Shown one piece after another: positions 9,318 to 30,225 of a stretch of DNA of 60,257 nt (the stretch's first letter is position 1; each line of letters opens with the position of its first letter). The stretch comes from Myxococcaceae bacterium (GTDB lineage Bacteria > Myxococcota > Myxococcia > Myxococcales > Myxococcaceae), in NCBI GenBank assembly GCA_022842905.1, contig JALHOS010000001.1:4907-65163 (forward strand), given 5' to 3'. The notes under the pieces were generated by a model. The model was not told the DNA's origin and ran no database searches. It saw only the letters and a program-made list of their open reading frames with translations. Position numbers and translations under genes: made by a program.

Positions 9318-11148
9318 GCTCCTTCAAGTGGGCGTTCATCCGTGCTTCTGCTGCGGCGCGTTCGGCCTCCAGCACGCGTAACCGCCGAACTGCTGCGGCG
9401 ACATCGACGGCCGCTTCGGACTCGGTCGCATCGACAAACCGACTGATGTTGATGTTGAAGTCGTTCTTTTCAATCTCCTCAATGGAGACCACGCGCGCGT
9501 ACCCTTCCGAGTCGGCGAATGCCCGGAACGTGGCGGCGATCCTGTTCACGTCCTCGTCGCGCAGGAAGTTCTGGGCGGTGCCGTCCATGAACTCACGGGA
9601 GGCGTCGATAAAGAGCACCTGCCTTTTGCGAAGCTTCGCGCGGTTGAGCACCAGCACGGCGGCCGGGATGCCAGTTCCATAGAAAAGGTTCGATGGCAGC
9701 CCGATGACGGCCTCCACGAGGTCATCCGTAACGAGTCCCTTGCGAATGTCCCGTTCGCTCCCGCCGCGAAAGAGGACGCCGTGGGGCATGACTACAGCTA
9801 GCTGGCCGGTGGCATTCAACGTCGCGACCATGTGCTGCACGAACGCAAGGTCGCCTTTCGACTTTGGAGGCACGCCATAGCGGAACCGACCGAATCCGTC
9901 GTGTTCGGCAACCTCGACGCCCCACTCGTCGAGCGAGAACGGAGGGTTTGCTATCACTCGGTCATAGAGGATGAGCCCGCCGTCCTTCACGAGCTTCGGG
10001 TCGCGGATGGTGTCGCCCTTCTCGATGCGGGCGTCGGTGAGGCCGTGGAGCAGCAGGTTCATCTTCGCGATGGCCCACGTCCCGAGGTTCTTCTCCTGAC
10101 CGTGGTACGTGAGGTTCTTCGCGTTGCCGCCGTGCTTCCGCACGTAATGCGCGCACTCAACCAACATGCCGCCTGAGCCGCAGGTCGGGTCGCAGATGCG
10201 CATCCCTTCATTGGGAGCGAGCAACTCGACGATGAGCTGTACGACCTTGCGGGGCGTGTAGAACTCGCCGCCCTTTTTTCCGGCGTCATCGGCGAACTTC
10301 TCGATGAGGTACTCGTAGGCCCTCCCGAGCATGTCCGGCTCGGACAGCGACGAGTTCCGCAGGTTCACCTTCGAGAAGTGCAGCACCAACTTGGAGAGCA
10401 CGGTGTCGCGGTTCTTCGCGTCGCCCAGCCTCCGCTCGTCGTTGTAGTCAATCTGCGCGAGCAGCCCCTCCAGCGACTCGTTCTTCTCCTCCAGCGCCGC
10501 GCACGCCTTGTTCAGCGCCTCGCCGATGCCGGTGGAGACCTTCTGAAGCTCTGACCACCGCGCGCGCGTCGGCACGAAGAACTGGTGCTGGTCCTCGTCG
10601 CTCCACGCAACCTTCTCCGACTCGCCCGCCGCGACGAGCTTCTCGGCCTCCTCCTCGAAGACGTCGGAGAGCCGCTTCAGGAACAGCAGCCCGAAAATGA
10701 AGCCCTTGTAGTCCGACGAGTCGATGCTGCCTCGAAGGATGTCAGCGGCGCTCCAGAGGTAGCGTTCGAGCTGGTCCACGGTGAGCTTGCCGTTTGCGGT
10801 GAGTTCCCCCGTGGGCGGCGCGACATCGTTCTTCGCCGTCACCTTGGCGACGGGAGCCGCCACGTCACCGCCGAGAATGCGAGCGATGAGGACGTCCTTC
10901 TCCTTGCCGGAGCGGTCGAGTTCGAGCGCTTCGCAGATGCCCTGAAGCTCCTCCCGCCTGAGCAGACCCAACACCTCGGAGAAATCCACCGAGCGCGAGC
11001 GAACGAGGGCGTCAACGTGCTGTTCGAGCACTCGACGGTCCCCGACTTCGAGGTCGAAGTGCTCGGTTAGGGAGGAGAGGCGGTCACGAGCGAGAGTCGC
11101 AAGGGCCTGACGGCGGATCTTCGACGGGAGGATGTCCGGCTTCGACAT
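9304..11148 (-). CDS. hsdM: Type I DNA adenine methyltransferase subunit HsdM
   Basis: The 614-residue subunit contains the N6-adenine methylase motifs: DPTCGSGGML (from residue 320) for S-adenosylmethionine binding and the catalytic NPPF at 401-404. An HsdM N-terminal helical domain (about 121-260) precedes them. It is longer than the usual roughly 500 residues because of an N-terminal extension of about 110 residues. Within this, 61-92 (LRREELQGICEALEL...) looks like a SAP-type DNA-binding helix pair. With HsdS it forms the methylase that protects host DNA. It is the first gene of the operon, starting about 240 bases from the divergent gene pair at 12.4 kb, with a small same-strand gene in between. 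Confidence 0.95.
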   Translation of the reverse strand: MSKPDILPSKIRRQALATLARDRLSSLTEHFDLEVGDRRVLEQHVDALVRSRSVDFSEVLGLLRREELQGICEALELDRSGKEKDVLIARILGGDVAAPVAKVTAKNDVAPPTGELTANGKLTVDQLERYLWSAADILRGSIDSSDYKGFIFGLLFLKRLSDVFEEEAEKLVAAGESEKVAWSDEDQHQFFVPTRARWSELQKVSTGIGEALNKACAALEEKNESLEGLLAQIDYNDERRLGDAKNRDTVLSKLVLHFSKVNLRNSSLSEPDMLGRAYEYLIEKFADDAGKKGGEFYTPRKVVQLIVELLAPNEGMRICDPTCGSGGMLVECAHYVRKHGGNAKNLTYHGQEKNLGTWAIAKMNLLLHGLTDARIEKGDTIRDPKLVKDGGLILYDRVIANPPFSLDEWGVEVAEHDGFGRFRYGVPPKSKGDLAFVQHMVATLNATGQLAVVMPHGVLFRGGSERDIRKGLVTDDLVEAVIGLPSNLFYGTGIPAAVLVLNRAKLRKRQVLFIDASREFMDGTAQNFLRDEDVNRIAATFRAFADSEGYARVVSIEEIEKNDFNINISRFVDATESEAAVDVAAAVRRLRVLEAERAAAEARMNAHLKELGYA

Positions 11149-24265: not shown

Positions 24266-24370
24266 ACGGCAGCAGATACCCGGATGGAGGACGACCCGGT
24301 TCAAGTAGCCAGCGCAACGCGGCGCTGTCGCAACGCTCCGGGGGACGCCACTTCGCGAGGAGAACCCAAC

Positions 24371-24739
24371 ATGAAAGCAGACAATGGGTCTTCCCCGACG
24401 GGGAAGACAGATGGGCAGAGCCATGTCGAGCGGGAAGCTGACTCCGCTCGTCGCGACAATCCTCAACGCCGGGAGACGGTCAGGAAGCCACTCGGCGCGC
24501 AGGCGGACGAGGTTCCGGGAAAGTCGGCACCTGAAGGCGGCACTGAGCTTCCGAATCTTCTCTGCACGCCGAAGGAAGCCGCAGCGTTCCTGCGTTTGAC
24601 GCTGAAGGCGCTCTACGGGCGACGGGCTCGCGGCCAGATCAAGTCGGTGACGATCGGGCGAAGCATCAGGTTCCGTCGGACTGACCTGCTAGCGTTCGTT
24701 GCCGAAGGGCGTGCGCCGTCGCCGAGGAGATCTCGATGA
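24371..24739 (+). CDS. Excisionase-like helix-turn-helix protein
   Basis: The 122-residue protein has a disordered, charged N-terminal half and a C-terminal HTH_17/excisionase-type domain: LLCTPKEAAAFLRLTLKALY, then GRRARGQIKSVTIGRSIRF, then RRTDLLAFVAEG. This is the MerR-like winged helix of Xis and AlpA-type factors that steer integrase towards excision. A GAGGAGA ribosome-binding site ends 9 bases before the ATG at 24371. Its stop overlaps the integrase start (ATGA), the classic xis-int layout. The element can therefore probably excise. Confidence 0.8.
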   Translation: MKADNGSSPTGKTDGQSHVEREADSARRDNPQRRETVRKPLGAQADEVPGKSAPEGGTELPNLLCTPKEAAAFLRLTLKALYGRRARGQIKSVTIGRSIRFRRTDLLAFVAEGRAPSPRRSR

Positions 24740-25926
24740 CGGTCTACATCAGGCCTTACGTGGTGGCCGTGAACCACGTCAAAGACTGCGCCAAACGCAG
24801 GTGCAGTCCGGATTGCAAACGCGTCACTGAAGGCTGGGAGGTGGACGTCGTGTTGACCCTGCCCGACGGCGAGGAACTCCGGGAGCGAAGGAAGAGCCCG
24901 GTTACCTCGAAGGCGGGCTCCAAGTTCTGGGCGGAGCAGCGGGAGGGTGAGCTGCTGCGAAACGGGAAGAAGCGCGCCGATGCACTGATTCCGACGCTGA
25001 AGGAGTTCGTGCCCCGGTACATCGAGGAGTTCTGCGTCGCCAACAAGCAGAAACCCAGCACCATCGAGAGCAAGCAGGCGACTTTCGATGGGCGATTGCT
25101 GCCGCTGCTTGGTGGGCTCCGTCTCGACGAGATCGGCGAGGAACAGGTTCAACGCGTCAAGGCCGACATGAAGGACTGCAAGCCGAAGACGATCAACAAC
25201 GTGCTCTGCATTCTCTCCAAGGCCCTGAAGGTGGCGATCAAGTGGAAGAAGAGCACTGGTCTCACCGCCATGCCCGTTCAGATTGAACCGCTGAAAGGAG
25301 CTGGGGCCGAGGTCCGGTTCTACGAGTTCGAGGAGTACGCGCGGCTCGTGGAGGCGGCGGAGAAGCTCGATCTCCGCTCGCTGGTGTTGGTCCTCCTTGG
25401 TGGCGATGCCGGTCTCCGCACCGGGGAGATCATCGCCTTGGAGTGGTCCGACATCGACTTCCGGCGACGAATCATCATCGTCGGACGGTCGGAGTGGAAC
25501 GGCAACGTGAGCATCCCGAAGAGCAACAAGTCTCGGAAGGTGCCGATGACCGAGAAGCTCACGGCCGCCCTCAAGGCCCTCAAGCACCTCCGTGGGCCTC
25601 GGGTGCTCTACCGGGACGACGGCACTTCGACGTCGAAGCAGACCCTAACGACGTGGATGAAAGCCGCGCAGAGACGGGCTGGGCTGAAGGAGACCGGGAA
25701 CAAGCACATCCTCCGGCACACCTTCTGTTCGCACCTCGCCATGAGGGGAGCCACCGTGCTCGCCATCAAGGAGCTGGCCGGGCACAGCAGCCTCAGCACG
25801 ACGATGAGGTACATGCACCTCAGCCCGGACCACAAGGAGCAGGCCATCCGGCTCCTCGACCAAGCTCGGAATGGTTCTCAGCTTGGAGACATTCTGGAGA
25901 CGGACCGACCGGCCACCCAGCACTAG
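24736..25926 (+). CDS. int: Tyrosine recombinase (integrase)
   Basis: The 396-residue protein has an N-terminal arm-binding part with four cysteines (CAKRRCSPDCKR), a SAM-like core-binding domain (about 85-185), and the catalytic domain. The catalytic residues are visible: Arg in GDAGLRTGEI, HILRHTFCSHLA (His and Arg), LAGHSSLSTTMRYMHLS (His and the Tyr nucleophile). It catalyses site-specific insertion and excision. The gene ends about 90 bases from the 3' end of tRNA-Glu(CTC), which is the likely attachment site. Complete, with no frameshift. Confidence 0.94.
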   Translation: MTVYIRPYVVAVNHVKDCAKRRCSPDCKRVTEGWEVDVVLTLPDGEELRERRKSPVTSKAGSKFWAEQREGELLRNGKKRADALIPTLKEFVPRYIEEFCVANKQKPSTIESKQATFDGRLLPLLGGLRLDEIGEEQVQRVKADMKDCKPKTINNVLCILSKALKVAIKWKKSTGLTAMPVQIEPLKGAGAEVRFYEFEEYARLVEAAEKLDLRSLVLVLLGGDAGLRTGEIIALEWSDIDFRRRIIIVGRSEWNGNVSIPKSNKSRKVPMTEKLTAALKALKHLRGPRVLYRDDGTSTSKQTLTTWMKAAQRRAGLKETGNKHILRHTFCSHLAMRGATVLAIKELAGHSSLSTTMRYMHLSPDHKEQAIRLLDQARNGSQLGDILETDRPATQH

Positions 25927-26397: not shown

Positions 26398-26658
26398 CTA
26401 CTTCGACGACGTCCAGCTGCCCTCGTTGAGCAGCTTGTTGATCTGCTCCTCAGGCGAGCAGGCCATCGCGTTGTTCTGCGCCCGCAGGCACTTGAGCACC
26501 TTCGCGTCGTACGTCGAGCTGAAGATGACCTTGTTGTAATCGGTGTACGCGACGTACAGCGTGTCGCCGCCCACCCAGGTCCGCGCCGTCACGAACTTGA
26601 TGTTCATGCAGCCGCTCACCGCCACCAGCGCCAGCAATCCAAAGAGTGTCTTCTTCAT
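26398..26658 (-). CDS. Small lipoprotein, fourth of a tandem paralogous set
   Basis: This 86-residue product has a lipoprotein signal (MKKTLFGLLALVAVSGC, lipobox VSGC). The mature part is short: VGGDTLYVAYTDYNKVIFSS, then a KCLRAQNNAMAC pair of cysteines 10 apart. It shares with its three upstream neighbours a strand-rich start and a C-x(8-10)-C pair near the end, which suggests old gene duplication. AGGAG lies 8 bases before the ATG at 26658. Last gene of the group of four; function unknown, probably outer-membrane or periplasm facing. Confidence 0.78.
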   Translation of the reverse strand: MKKTLFGLLALVAVSGCMNIKFVTARTWVGGDTLYVAYTDYNKVIFSSTYDAKVLKCLRAQNNAMACSPEEQINKLLNEGSWTSSK

Positions 26659-26678
26659 GGTCATGTCTCCTTGGCGCC

Positions 26679-26954
26679 TTAGAACTGCACTTGGCCGGTG
26701 TAGACGTTCGTGAGAATGGTCGAGGTCGCGCAGTTGCTCTCGGTCCCATTCGCGTCGTAGTCACACATGCGGATCTGGTAGTCGTACAGCACCACCTGGT
26801 TGTTCGATCCGTTCCCCACCGACGTCATGGGCACGTAGATCGTCTTCGTCCCGCGGCCGCCGACGAAGCTGTCGTCGACCAGGTACTGCGGTCGACGGCA
26901 CGCACCGAGCGCGACGAGCGCCAAAGCACCGAGCATCAGAATCTTCTTGGTCAT
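26679..26954 (-). CDS. Small lipoprotein, third of the set
   Basis: The 91-residue protein has signal MTKKILMLGALALVALGAC, lipobox LGAC. The mature part is FVGGRGTKTIYVPMTSVGNG, then IRMCDYDANGTESNCAT with two cysteines separated by ten residues. The C-x10-C spacing equals that of the first member (27306-27539). GAGGAG precedes the ATG by about ten bases. It lies 13 bases from its upstream neighbour and 20 from its downstream one, consistent with one operon. Function unknown. Confidence 0.78.
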   Translation of the reverse strand: MTKKILMLGALALVALGACRRPQYLVDDSFVGGRGTKTIYVPMTSVGNGSNNQVVLYDYQIRMCDYDANGTESNCATSTILTNVYTGQVQF

Positions 26955-26967
26955 TGGTGTCGTCTCC

Positions 26968-27306
26968 TCAGTTCACCGAGTTACCCACCGAGCCACCCGA
27001 GATCGTCGCGGGTGAGCCAGGCAGCATCAGGTCCGGGCAATCCAGATCGACGCCCTTCTCGGTGCAGGACTTCTTGCACGAGATGGCGCCCGGCTGCTCC
27101 GAGCACTTCCAGAACTGATGCCGAATGCTCGTCGGGAAGATCTGGAAGAACCAGATCCCGTACGTGTCCACCGTCTGGATCACCGTGACGTTCTTGTCGC
27201 CCGACTGAATCACCGACTTCAGGCTCCGGCTCCACAGACAGCCCGAGCCGCCCACGGCCAGCGTCGCCAGCGCGGCGACGGCCACCATCTTCCGGAAGGT
27301 CTTCAT
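26968..27306 (-). CDS. Small lipoprotein, second of the set
   Basis: The 112-residue protein has signal MKTFRKMVAVAALATLAVGG with lipobox GSGC. The mature part has DKNVTVIQTVDTYGIWFFQI, FWKCSEQPGAISCKKSC and a C-terminal extension with two more cysteines (LDCPDLM). It is the most diverged of the four. The ATG at 27306 overlaps the upstream stop as TGATG; a GTG one codon earlier is possible. Co-transcribed with its neighbours. Function unknown. Confidence 0.76.
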   Translation of the reverse strand: MKTFRKMVAVAALATLAVGGSGCLWSRSLKSVIQSGDKNVTVIQTVDTYGIWFFQIFPTSIRHQFWKCSEQPGAISCKKSCTEKGVDLDCPDLMLPGSPATISGGSVGNSVN

Positions 27307-27539
27307 CACTTCTCCTCCACGAAGGTGAGGGTGAGGGGCTTGCAGTTGCTCAGCGCCCCGTCGGCGCCGGCGTCACAATCGATGACGCCCTGCTCCGTAT
27401 TGCCCCAACCGAGGTTTCGGTAGAACAGCAGCCGGAACTTGCTGTCCCGAGTGGTGGACATGCTGGTGATGATTCGAGGACCGGCGCACGCAGAGAGGCC
27501 CAATGCCCCCAGCGCTGCCAGCGCAATCAGTCTCTTCAT
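27306..27539 (-). CDS. Small lipoprotein, first of the set
   Basis: The 77-residue protein has signal MKRLIALAALGALGLSAC, lipobox LSAC. The mature part is STTRDSKFRLLFYRNLGWG then GVIDCDAGADGALSNCKPLTLTFV, with cysteines ten residues apart. GGAGGGAG lies 7 bases before the ATG at 27539. Longer upstream starts are open but would put 21 non-signal residues before the signal peptide. First gene of the four-gene lipoprotein run, 97 bases after the stop of the large TSP3/vWA lipoprotein on the same strand. Confidence 0.78.
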   Translation of the reverse strand: MKRLIALAALGALGLSACAGPRIITSMSTTRDSKFRLLFYRNLGWGNTEQGVIDCDAGADGALSNCKPLTLTFVEEK

Positions 27540-27574
27540 GCTGTGACTCCCTCCGAGGAAAAACTGCGGCGCGG

Positions 27575-27602
27575 ACCCTATCGCCTCGGGCGTGCGCCAC
27601 AA
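27575..27602 (-). promoter_or_regulatory. Possible sigma-70-type promoter of lipoprotein set
   Basis: On the minus strand TTGTGG (27602-27597) and TAGGGT (27580-27575) are separated by 16 bases, with the start codon of the first lipoprotein 36 bases further on. The match to consensus is weak and no expression data exist. The gap between the two genes is too short for much else. Confidence 0.28.
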
Positions 27603-27636
27603 TGAAAAATTGCTTCCCGGAGAGATTTCTGCGGCG

Positions 27637-30225
27637 TCAGTTGATCTGGGGCTCGCAGGAGCACGTGGCCCGGTTGCAGGTCAGCCCCGCCGAGCACCCG
27701 CCGCAGTTGTTCGGGCACACGCACATGCGCGTCATCGCGTCGCAGACCAGCGGCGCCACGCACATCATGCCGCAGGGGTCGCCGTCGAAGCGCGTCATGG
27801 CGTCGTTCCAGTAGCGGTAGCTGACCGCCACCTGCACCCCCGACGCGCTCGGAATGCAGTTGCCGAAGAAGGCCACCCGCCGCGTCGTGCTGTCGATGTC
27901 CCAGCCGTTGGTCCGATCCCGCGGCACGTCGGCCGTGTTGCACGTGCCCCGCGTGGAGCCGGCGGCCATGGCCACCTTGATCGTCGCGTTGATCGGCGGG
28001 CGCTGCAGCCGGTGCCCGGTGCTGCCGACCACCGCGCGCAAGATCGCGTCGATCGTCTGCTCCTGCTGGGCGAGCTGCTGCGTCGTCGGGCTTGCCGGGT
28101 TGAACACTTCGATGTTGCCGAGCACGCCGCCCACGTTGCGGATCAGCGTGTGGTACTTGCCCGGGTTCACCTCCGGCGTGCCGTCGCCGCAGTCGGTGCC
28201 CTCGGTGCAGACGATGCCGTGCGCCGACCAGTTGCCGGCGCCGAAGCGCGTGTTCATCGTCGTCGCGATGGAGCTCGCCGTCGTCCCCGACTGATCCCGC
28301 GTGTCCGACAGGAAGATGATGTGCGCCAGCGCGCCCATGCGGAACATGCCCGGGTTGTTGGACGGGTGGCTGCGGTTCAAGAAGCTCAAGAGCCCCGAGA
28401 AGCCCTGCTCGTTGCCGTTGCCCGTGATGCCGAACGCCGTCGTGCCGGTGAACCAGCTGGTGAGCGTCGCCACCTGATCGGTGAACTCGAAGAACTTCCC
28501 GTCCCACGCGCTCGAGTACCAACCCGTCGACACCCCGGCCGCCCGCCAGTTGAGCCCCGCCGTCGTCAGCCGCCCGCCGAACAGGCTGCCGGCGCGCGAG
28601 ACCGCCGTCTGCGAGTCCTCCATGGAGCAGGAGTCGTCGACCACCCACAGGAAATCCACCGTCTGGTTCACCTGCGCCTGGAACACCTCACACTGGGTGC
28701 CGTCGAAGTCGCCGAACTGGGCCACCGCGCTGCCGCCGGCCACGTCGTCCTGCGTGAAGAGCACCGGCTGCTGGCTCGCCGACGCGGCGGGAATGAACGC
28801 CGCCACCACCACCAGCCGCGCGTCCGTCGCGCCGGGCGCGGTGCGCACCGTGTACTGAACCTGCGCGCGGAACGGCCCGCTGACCCCGGCGGCGCCCATG
28901 AGCGTCCCCGTCGTGCCGCTGCCGAGCACGCTGCCAGCGACGGCGTTGAGCTTGGCCTTCAAGTCCTGCGTGCCGCTGACGTCGTACGTCGCGCGGATCG
29001 ACGCGTAGCCGTCCCAGCTCGTGAAGTTCTGCACCAGCGGGTTGGTCGCGCCGCCGAGCGCCGCGCGCCCCGCCTGCTCCTGAGCGACGGCCGTCGCGCT
29101 CGCGGCCACCGTCTTGACGACCGCGAAGCCCGCGACCCGGTTCGTCCCGTCATAGAAGATGAGGCCCCGCTCCTGCCCGCCCTGCGTCAGCGTCGACACT
29201 TCGGTGAAGGACGGCGCCAGGGCCACGTTCACGTCGGCGAAGCCGTTCTTCTCGAACTTCACCGGGCGCAGGTTCGCGGTGGCGCAGGCCTGCGTCGCCG
29301 GGCCCATGGCGTCCGCCGGGTTGCCCGGGTTGAGCTCGCCCATGTCCGTGCGCCCGTTCAAGTTGGTGTCCTCCGCGCCGTCCATGATCCCGTCGCCATC
29401 GCTGTCGGCGCTGCACGCGTTGGTGCGGCTGCCCATGTCCGCGTCGAAGGACGCGGTGGTGTACGTGCAGCCCATGGCGTCGTGGCCCGGAGGCGTCAGC
29501 CCGCCCTCCACGCCGTCCGGCAGGCCGTCGCCGTCGCTGTCCCGCTTGCTGGGGTCCGTGTTGCAGCCCGCGGCGCCCATCGTCTCCTGCTGATCGCTGT
29601 AGCCGTCACAGTCGCTGTCGCCCTTGAGTGGATCGGTCTCCCCTGGATCCCGCTTGCCGTTCTTGTTGGCGTCTTCCACGCCGTCGGCCAGGCCGTCGTT
29701 GTCACTGTCCACCTTGGTGGGGTTGGACTTGGACCGCGGATCCGTGTCGGCGACGAAGCCCATGCAGGTGACGATGGTGCTGCTCTTGCCCATCTCCTGG
29801 CCGTCACCCAGACCGTCGCCGTCGCTGTCCGACGCGCAGGGGTTCGTCTTGGCCCCACCGCCGTAGTCCGTCGCGTACTCCTCGGCGTCCGTCAGGCCGT
29901 CGCAGTCGCTGTCGAGCATGGGGTTGGCGGGGTTGCTGATGTCGCAGCCCGTGTACACGCGGCCCATGCCGCCGGCGCCCGCGCCACCCGCGCCGCCCGT
30001 CCCGCCGCCGCCGGAGCCTCGGCACACGCTGGCCTGGCACGTCTCTCCCGCGGGGCAGTCAGTGTTGTTCGCGCAGGTCCGGTTGCTGGCCTGGCGGCAC
30101 TCGCCCATGGTGCACACCTGCCCGGCGGGGCACTGCGCGGTGGTGGTGCACTGCTGCACGGTCTGGCCACACGCGGCGAGCACGCCGACCGCGGCAAGTC
30201 CGAGCGCAAAAACGTGGTTCTTCAT
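27637..30225 (-). CDS. Lipoprotein with thrombospondin type 3 repeats and vWA-like domain
   Basis: The 862-residue protein has signal MKNHVFALGLAAVGVLAAC (lipobox LAAC). Two Cys-rich modules follow (QCPAGQVCTMGECR, DCPAGETCQASVCR), then a Gly/Ala linker. Next come six calcium-binding TSP3-type repeats (for example DSDGDGLGDGQE, DSDNDGLADGVEDANKNG). A vWA-like domain begins about residue 550, with the metal site VVDDSCSMEDS (D-x-S-x-S). The C-terminus is another Cys-rich module (CVCPNNCGGCSAGLTC). Such large surface lipoproteins are frequent in myxobacteria and bind Ca and probably other surface partners. Export and anchoring on the outer membrane are inferred. The gene has its own gap on both sides; frame is intact throughout. 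Confidence 0.85.
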   Translation of the reverse strand: MKNHVFALGLAAVGVLAACGQTVQQCTTTAQCPAGQVCTMGECRQASNRTCANNTDCPAGETCQASVCRGSGGGGTGGAGGAGAGGMGRVYTGCDISNPANPMLDSDCDGLTDAEEYATDYGGGAKTNPCASDSDGDGLGDGQEMGKSSTIVTCMGFVADTDPRSKSNPTKVDSDNDGLADGVEDANKNGKRDPGETDPLKGDSDCDGYSDQQETMGAAGCNTDPSKRDSDGDGLPDGVEGGLTPPGHDAMGCTYTTASFDADMGSRTNACSADSDGDGIMDGAEDTNLNGRTDMGELNPGNPADAMGPATQACATANLRPVKFEKNGFADVNVALAPSFTEVSTLTQGGQERGLIFYDGTNRVAGFAVVKTVAASATAVAQEQAGRAALGGATNPLVQNFTSWDGYASIRATYDVSGTQDLKAKLNAVAGSVLGSGTTGTLMGAAGVSGPFRAQVQYTVRTAPGATDARLVVVAAFIPAASASQQPVLFTQDDVAGGSAVAQFGDFDGTQCEVFQAQVNQTVDFLWVVDDSCSMEDSQTAVSRAGSLFGGRLTTAGLNWRAAGVSTGWYSSAWDGKFFEFTDQVATLTSWFTGTTAFGITGNGNEQGFSGLLSFLNRSHPSNNPGMFRMGALAHIIFLSDTRDQSGTTASSIATTMNTRFGAGNWSAHGIVCTEGTDCGDGTPEVNPGKYHTLIRNVGGVLGNIEVFNPASPTTQQLAQQEQTIDAILRAVVGSTGHRLQRPPINATIKVAMAAGSTRGTCNTADVPRDRTNGWDIDSTTRRVAFFGNCIPSASGVQVAVSYRYWNDAMTRFDGDPCGMMCVAPLVCDAMTRMCVCPNNCGGCSAGLTCNRATCSCEPQIN

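Follow-up and report, generated by a model that had tools for sequence, protein, structure and literature searches.

Several described groups of bacterial lipoproteins can be compared with the four small proteins presented in this work. SitA toxins are myxobacterial, bear a lipobox, are encoded in operons and are patchily distributed between relatives, while CglD belongs to the contact-dependent gliding lipoproteins. Small lipoproteins can also exclude phages, as in the case of Cor, and MliC-type periplasmic inhibitors are small, strand-rich lipoproteins with a disulphide-bonded Cys pair. The locus considered here is a run of four short genes located on the minus strand at positions 26398-27539 of the window, which is the whole 60,257-nucleotide stretch of Myxococcaceae DNA that was analyzed. 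It shares with the SitA loci all the general features listed above. However, the mature parts of its products comprise only 60-90 aa, without a recognised toxin domain, and no paired immunity gene lies 3′ of the fourth gene. This position is occupied by tRNA-Gly in the window, by an SfsA-like gene in the myxobacterial MAG SJ252 and by a convergent response regulator in Archangium, the last two being named by eye. Moreover, there is one such set per genome, as opposed to the 25-80 sitAI loci given in PMC8546572. The SitA-like toxin-immunity reading was rejected, as two of its defining features were tested and found to be absent. CglD is a lipoprotein encoded in the same genome neighbourhood, but the protein in the window has an 862-aa TSP3-repeat architecture and its adjacency to the four genes is not conserved. 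Cor (phrog_1119) is a small lipoprotein similar in length to the product of the fourth gene; the weak match between them (E 0.067) is, however, confined to the signal peptide and lipobox. The Pfam MliC model matched none of the 12 members at E≤10 in a search whose HMMER filters drop weak matches.

Results

The four genes were named LP1 to LP4 in the order of transcription. LP1 (27306..27539) encodes 77 aa, with the lipobox LSAC and a mature part of 60 aa containing C-x10-C. LP2 (26968..27306) encodes 112 aa when read from the ATG, a GTG 3 bases 5′ of it being also possible, and its mature part of 90 aa contains C-x8-C-x3-C-x8-C. The products of LP3 (26679..26954; 91 aa, mature 73 aa) and LP4 (26398..26664; 88 aa, mature 70 aa) contain C-x10-C and C-x9-C, respectively. 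The second ATG of LP4, at 26658, is likely its true start, because it is better distanced from the AAGGAG ribosome site. The LP1 stop and the LP2 start overlap as TGATG, the LP2-LP3 and LP3-LP4 gaps amount to 13 and 14 nt, and a sequence resembling a ribosome site precedes each gene. The third-position GC of 0.81-0.94 fits real genes in a window of 67% GC. A signal peptide and a lipobox Cys, which characterize bacterial lipoproteins of the signal peptidase II type, were found in all four proteins and in their eight orthologues, and Pfam LPAM_1 exceeded its cut-off in LP4 only. The first-pass annotation had described four tandem small lipoproteins with a lipobox and one Cys pair each, 8-10 residues apart. 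The four open reading frames were confirmed, as was C-x10-C in members one and three, and the spacings of 10, 8, 10 and 9 agree with the range given; LP2, however, carries two pairs, that is four Cys. Its two consecutive C-x8-C units, with 3 residues between them, are present in all three genomes with an intact set and resemble an intraprotein hairpin duplication. The GC content of the operon is below that of its surroundings in each of these genomes: 0.616 vs 0.674 in the window (26398-27539), 0.668 vs about 0.70-0.72 in SJ252 (L084:9983-11100), and 0.654 vs about 0.69-0.70 in Archangium violaceum Cb vi76 (L086:9892-11082).

Upstream of LP1, on the same strand, lies a gene for a CglD-family gliding lipoprotein with TSP3 repeats (27637-30225), which matched NCBIfam NF033765 gliding_CglD with 542 bits (cut-off 400). 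At least two more CglD-like loci occur in the same genome (contigs C7 and C147). The 97 bases between the cglD stop and LP1 (27540..27636) revealed neither a sigma-70-like promoter nor a terminator pattern, and the alignment of the four upstream regions gave no clear conserved block except the ribosome site. In the 3′ direction, LP4 is followed by tRNA-Gly, tRNA-Glu and a tyrosine integrase (24736-25926, plus strand), which adjoins tRNA-Glu. A small open reading frame before the integrase (24284-25926 region, plus strand) looks by eye like one for an excisionase-type DNA-binding protein. The region 24284-25926 together with tRNA-Glu is likely the end of an integrative element; no tRNA-end repeat of ≥14 bases that would mark an att pair was found in the window.

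The same four genes are present, one-to-one, intact and in the same order, in two other genera, represented by SJ252 and A. violaceum Cb vi76. The first set was identified in a search of relatives with LP3, which gave one strong match outside the window's genome, with the other three genes around it, and the second (G087) when LP4 was run against the order (145 genomes). Identical DNA in the records L084 and L086 assigns the two sets to SJ252 and Cb vi76, respectively. In SJ252 and Cb vi76, respectively, LP1 (L084:9983-10225; L086:9977-10237) is 64 and 43% identical to the protein in the window, LP2 (L084:10222-10536; L086:10237-10542) 48 and 39%, LP3 (L084:10550-10810; L086:10551-10820) 49 and 35%, and LP4 (L084:10828-11100; L086:10832-11092) 66 and 35%. 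All 30 of 30 non-lipid Cys positions are kept across the three genera with all spacings fixed, which upholds the claim that the Cys pair is conserved. Since the same four open reading frames recur intact in two other genera with these Cys retained, they are not chance frames. Gene lengths and spacing are also alike, LP1 and LP2 overlapping in three of three genomes and the other gaps measuring 8-17 nt. The dN/dS (NG86) between the window and SJ252 was about 0.2 for LP1 and 0.6-0.7 for LP2-LP4, and it slightly exceeded 1 in two Archangium comparisons, where the estimates approach saturation and high GC3 biases them. These values point to only moderate purifying selection on the LP genes and do not separate the rival explanations. 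Directly upstream of the operon, A. violaceum has a gene for a different Cys-rich small lipoprotein (L086:9474-9893; 139 aa by the first start codon), which is retained in a sister genome devoid of the operon.

Outside these sets, relatives of the LP proteins are rare. Within the order, 5 of 145 genomes gave matches to a pooled profile of the 12 mature proteins. Three of them have all four members, the MAG M069S2 (G141) has two relics, and the fifth has a 311-aa frame at E 0.16, which was the sole other match at E≤0.2 and was taken as chance. Copy number is therefore constant in this profile search, with exactly four members in each intact genome and no further copies in the window's genome, and the expanded copies for which the first-pass annotation had proposed to search other myxobacteria did not appear. 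Across the phylum, LP4 orthologues were detected in 3 of 195 genomes (six passed E 0.05, and three of them, at E 0.004-0.05, were discounted as partial stretches of longer frames). Among the 145 genomes of the order, LP2 and LP1 were each detected in four; for LP2, 11 genomes passed E 0.1 and seven were discounted at E 0.03 or worse, and for LP1, 23 passed E 0.1 and 19 were discounted at E 0.013 or worse. When 84,980 species were scanned with the LP1 alignment, by way of two short motifs that distant relatives can escape, only SJ252, M069S2 and Archangium were returned.

In M069S2 (L085), LP1 has an early stop, LP2 is truncated and frame-broken, and LP3 and LP4 are absent. When this locus was compared by blastn with five sister genomes, homology in each began at or near the neighbouring gene's start, and none of the five showed a recognisable relic. 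The match of LP1 in the sister genome G035 (20 residues, E 0.033) was dismissed as chance. Two sister genomes carry the gene adjoining the relics in duplicate, as diverged copies separated by about 2-3 kb, on contig C64 of G035 (L128/L131) and contig C107 of G003 (L129/L132), the second copy being 38-39% identical to the query. In a sister Archangium (G086, L122), the flanks of the A. violaceum operon are present at 88-90% DNA identity and the site is empty. Homology ends at position 9891 of L086 and picks up again at 11082; in L122 the two matching stretches are 14 bases apart. A 36-base scar in L122, collinear with the right flank, aligns to the LP4 3′ end with a score of 24.5, which none of 2951 random 60-mers of the locus reached (best 23); the LP4 remnant corresponds to 24 nt of the end of the gene. 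As an LP4 3′ remnant remains at the empty site, the operon was most likely deleted in this genome rather than gained in A. violaceum, as judged from a short scar match and one sister genome. The flanking gene is present in two of six genomes of the genus Archangium, the carrier included, which left one sister for comparison. In two relatives the SfsA-transporter neighbours are arranged differently, so they provide no empty-site comparison for SJ252. The genes flanking the set differ in all four carriers, and therefore the unit has relocated. LP identity to the window (48-66% in SJ252, 35-43% in Archangium) tracks that of CglD in the same genome pairs (60% in SJ252, 43% in Archangium, and 54% in M069S2). 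For this reason, old vertical inheritance with repeated loss is the simplest account of the distribution. The module is dispensable in most relatives.

The relationship among the four proteins was assessed with hhalign on mature parts only, against shuffles in which the Cys columns stayed fixed. LP1 and LP3 aligned over 56 columns at E 8e-5, their Cys being in register, and none of 156 shuffles was as good. In the LP3-LP4 and LP1-LP4 alignments the Cys are also in register, with 6 of 156 shuffles as good in each case, which is not significant after six pairs. For the pairs with LP2, the counts were 16 (LP1-LP2), 56 (LP2-LP3) and 30 (LP2-LP4) of 156. Pooling LP3 and LP4 against LP1 gave 0 of 184 shuffles, pooled LP1 and LP3 gave 12 of 184 against LP4 and 6 of 184 against LP2 (N-terminal strand only), and pooled LP1, LP3 and LP4 gave 37 of 184 against LP2. 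These alignments support a single origin of LP1 and LP3, and are only suggestive of common ancestry of LP4 with them; for LP2, they give no significant sign of such ancestry with the other three. The idea of four diverged paralogues thus holds for LP1 and LP3, is weak for LP4 and did not reach significance for LP2. Because each line is separately orthologous across three genera, the four are anciently diverged lines and no recent local expansion, which corrects the earlier reading of repeated duplication from their order and tight spacing.

Structure models of LP4 and LP2 were obtained with AlphaFold from three-row alignments. The LP4 model (mean pLDDT 62) is a five-strand meander with a C-terminal helix, in which Cys59 and Cys69 lie on neighbouring strands 57-61 and 67-71. 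The LP2 model (pLDDT 49) is also a meander of five strands; here Cys68 is on strand 60-71 and Cys77 on its neighbour, strand 74-83. Both would fit a disulphide across a hairpin, in line with the strand-rich middle and disulphide-bonded fold suggested beforehand, at a confidence too low for the comparison of folds. A fold search with the LP4 model, uninformative either way at this pLDDT, gave no match at E≤0.001 (best E 0.15, RB69 DNA polymerase), and its best VIA Z was 2.9, for cyanovirin-N. The first-pass annotation recognised no family, and this was borne out: Pfam, NCBIfam, PHROGs, PADLOC and PDB sequences contained no convincing match. Pfam and NCBIfam returned nothing but the lipoprotein attachment site and chance-level rows, among them a match of LP2 to an NCBIfam succinate dehydrogenase model (18 bits, cut-off 855) that was discarded, and the PDB search returned a single chance-level row (E 1.9). 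Viral contigs gave pattern matches and no confirmed relative, and no description of such a cluster was found in the open-licence PMC literature. The gene set is real, conserved and uncatalogued in the libraries searched.

Discussion

The retention of the complete set in order in some relatives and its loss in others suggests that the four proteins work together in the cell envelope. The operon may be one inherited functional unit, translationally compact, encoding four different small lipid-anchored beta-domains. Each domain would be clasped near its C-terminus by a disulphide across a hairpin, with two such clasps in LP2. Export would be followed by lipidation, periplasmic disulphide bonding and placement in the outer membrane, where the four would come together in one flat assembly that hugs the membrane, none of the subunits being interchangeable with another. 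Inner-membrane lipoproteins of M. xanthus commonly have +2 Lys and matrix ones +7 Ala, and the sorting rule is imperfect, as +2 Lys is reported not to have retained FibA (PMC3222651). None of the 12 LP proteins has +2 Lys or +7 Ala, and the outer membrane is therefore the default expectation. In each mature protein, conservation begins about 4 residues past the lipid Cys with a strand-like motif, in most cases a basic residue and then hydrophobics; hence there is no long tether, and the domains are expected to lie near the membrane. Since the four lines have stayed separate, hold a fixed order and disappear as a set, they may be useful only together, and it is on this ground that we infer hetero-assembly; co-transcription, the disulphides and the outer-membrane location are likewise inferred. 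The unit is supported by the four-gene order and tight spacing in three genera, by presence that is all-or-none apart from the LP1/LP2 relics, by the fixed Cys pattern, by LP identity that tracks CglD identity and by the deletion scar in the sister Archangium. On the other hand, co-regulation could conserve the order without any contact between the proteins, none of the genes beyond the four is a conserved partner, the paralogy of LP2 is non-significant, purifying selection is only moderate, and most relatives do without the module. An outer-membrane assembly with four non-interchangeable subunits is therefore put forward tentatively, at somewhat less than an even chance. It may serve as an envelope accessory, in adhesion, or as protection against phages or rivals. 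It is rather unlikely, though worth considering, that the assembly is in addition an outer-membrane machine of a kind not described before, whose four subunits all diverged from one small disulphide-clasped beta-domain, each taking a distinct, non-replaceable position, and which is kept or lost only as a complete set.

The strongest rival, because the distribution is patchy, is that the four are independently acting and merely co-expressed accessory factors, for example decoys at the surface or factors that exclude phages or rivals, with the patchiness reflecting fluctuating selection. Three intact sets among 145 genomes, the decaying copy in M069S2 and the deletion in the sister Archangium agree with such a role, as does the weak match of LP4 to Cor. 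This match, however, spans LP4 residues 3-34, no PADLOC model was matched, and no relative was found among plasmids (searched with LP4) or phages (searched with LP1). Moreover, the CglD-like divergence and the fixed four-gene order are unlike fast-turnover defence cargo. Independent action is possible, but on this balance doubtful. The similarity of LP1 and LP3 could also mean that the genes are leftovers of tandem duplication of one lipoprotein, redundant in function and kept by dosage. The separate conservation of each line across genera with its own Cys spacing and the lack of copy-number variation make this improbable. The proximity of cglD in the window brings to mind a role in adventurous gliding, in which the four would be accessory to the machinery and act together with CglD. 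Nevertheless, the cglD orthologues of SJ252 and M069S2 are on other contigs than the LP genes or their relics, and a convergent gene comes after each of them instead of LP genes; the best CglD match in Archangium is also on a separate contig, and the operon is absent from most relatives. As the link to cglD is missing in all three, a gliding role was rejected as the main reading and is quite improbable. The order methyltransferase-cglD is itself conserved in SJ252 and M069S2, without the LP genes. Finally, although the integrase and two tRNA genes adjoin the operon, its being cargo of that integrative element is very improbable, as the integrase lies beyond tRNA-Glu, so that an element inserted at that tRNA end would extend to the left and not toward the operon, the window has no tRNA-end repeat of ≥14 bases to mark an att pair, the orthologues stand in different contexts with no integrase seen beside them by eye, and the searches of plasmids with LP4 and of phages with LP1 were negative.

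Summarizing, a cluster noticed by eye has become a defined gene set that is conserved and has named orthologues, including those of a named strain, A. violaceum Cb vi76. Should the four proteins not assemble, they make up an uncatalogued small-lipoprotein family that is useful for annotation. If, as tentatively preferred here, they do assemble, they would be a compact example of duplicated lipoproteins turned into obligate partners, and would add a new component to the envelope of bacteria that are known to exchange outer-membrane lipoproteins.
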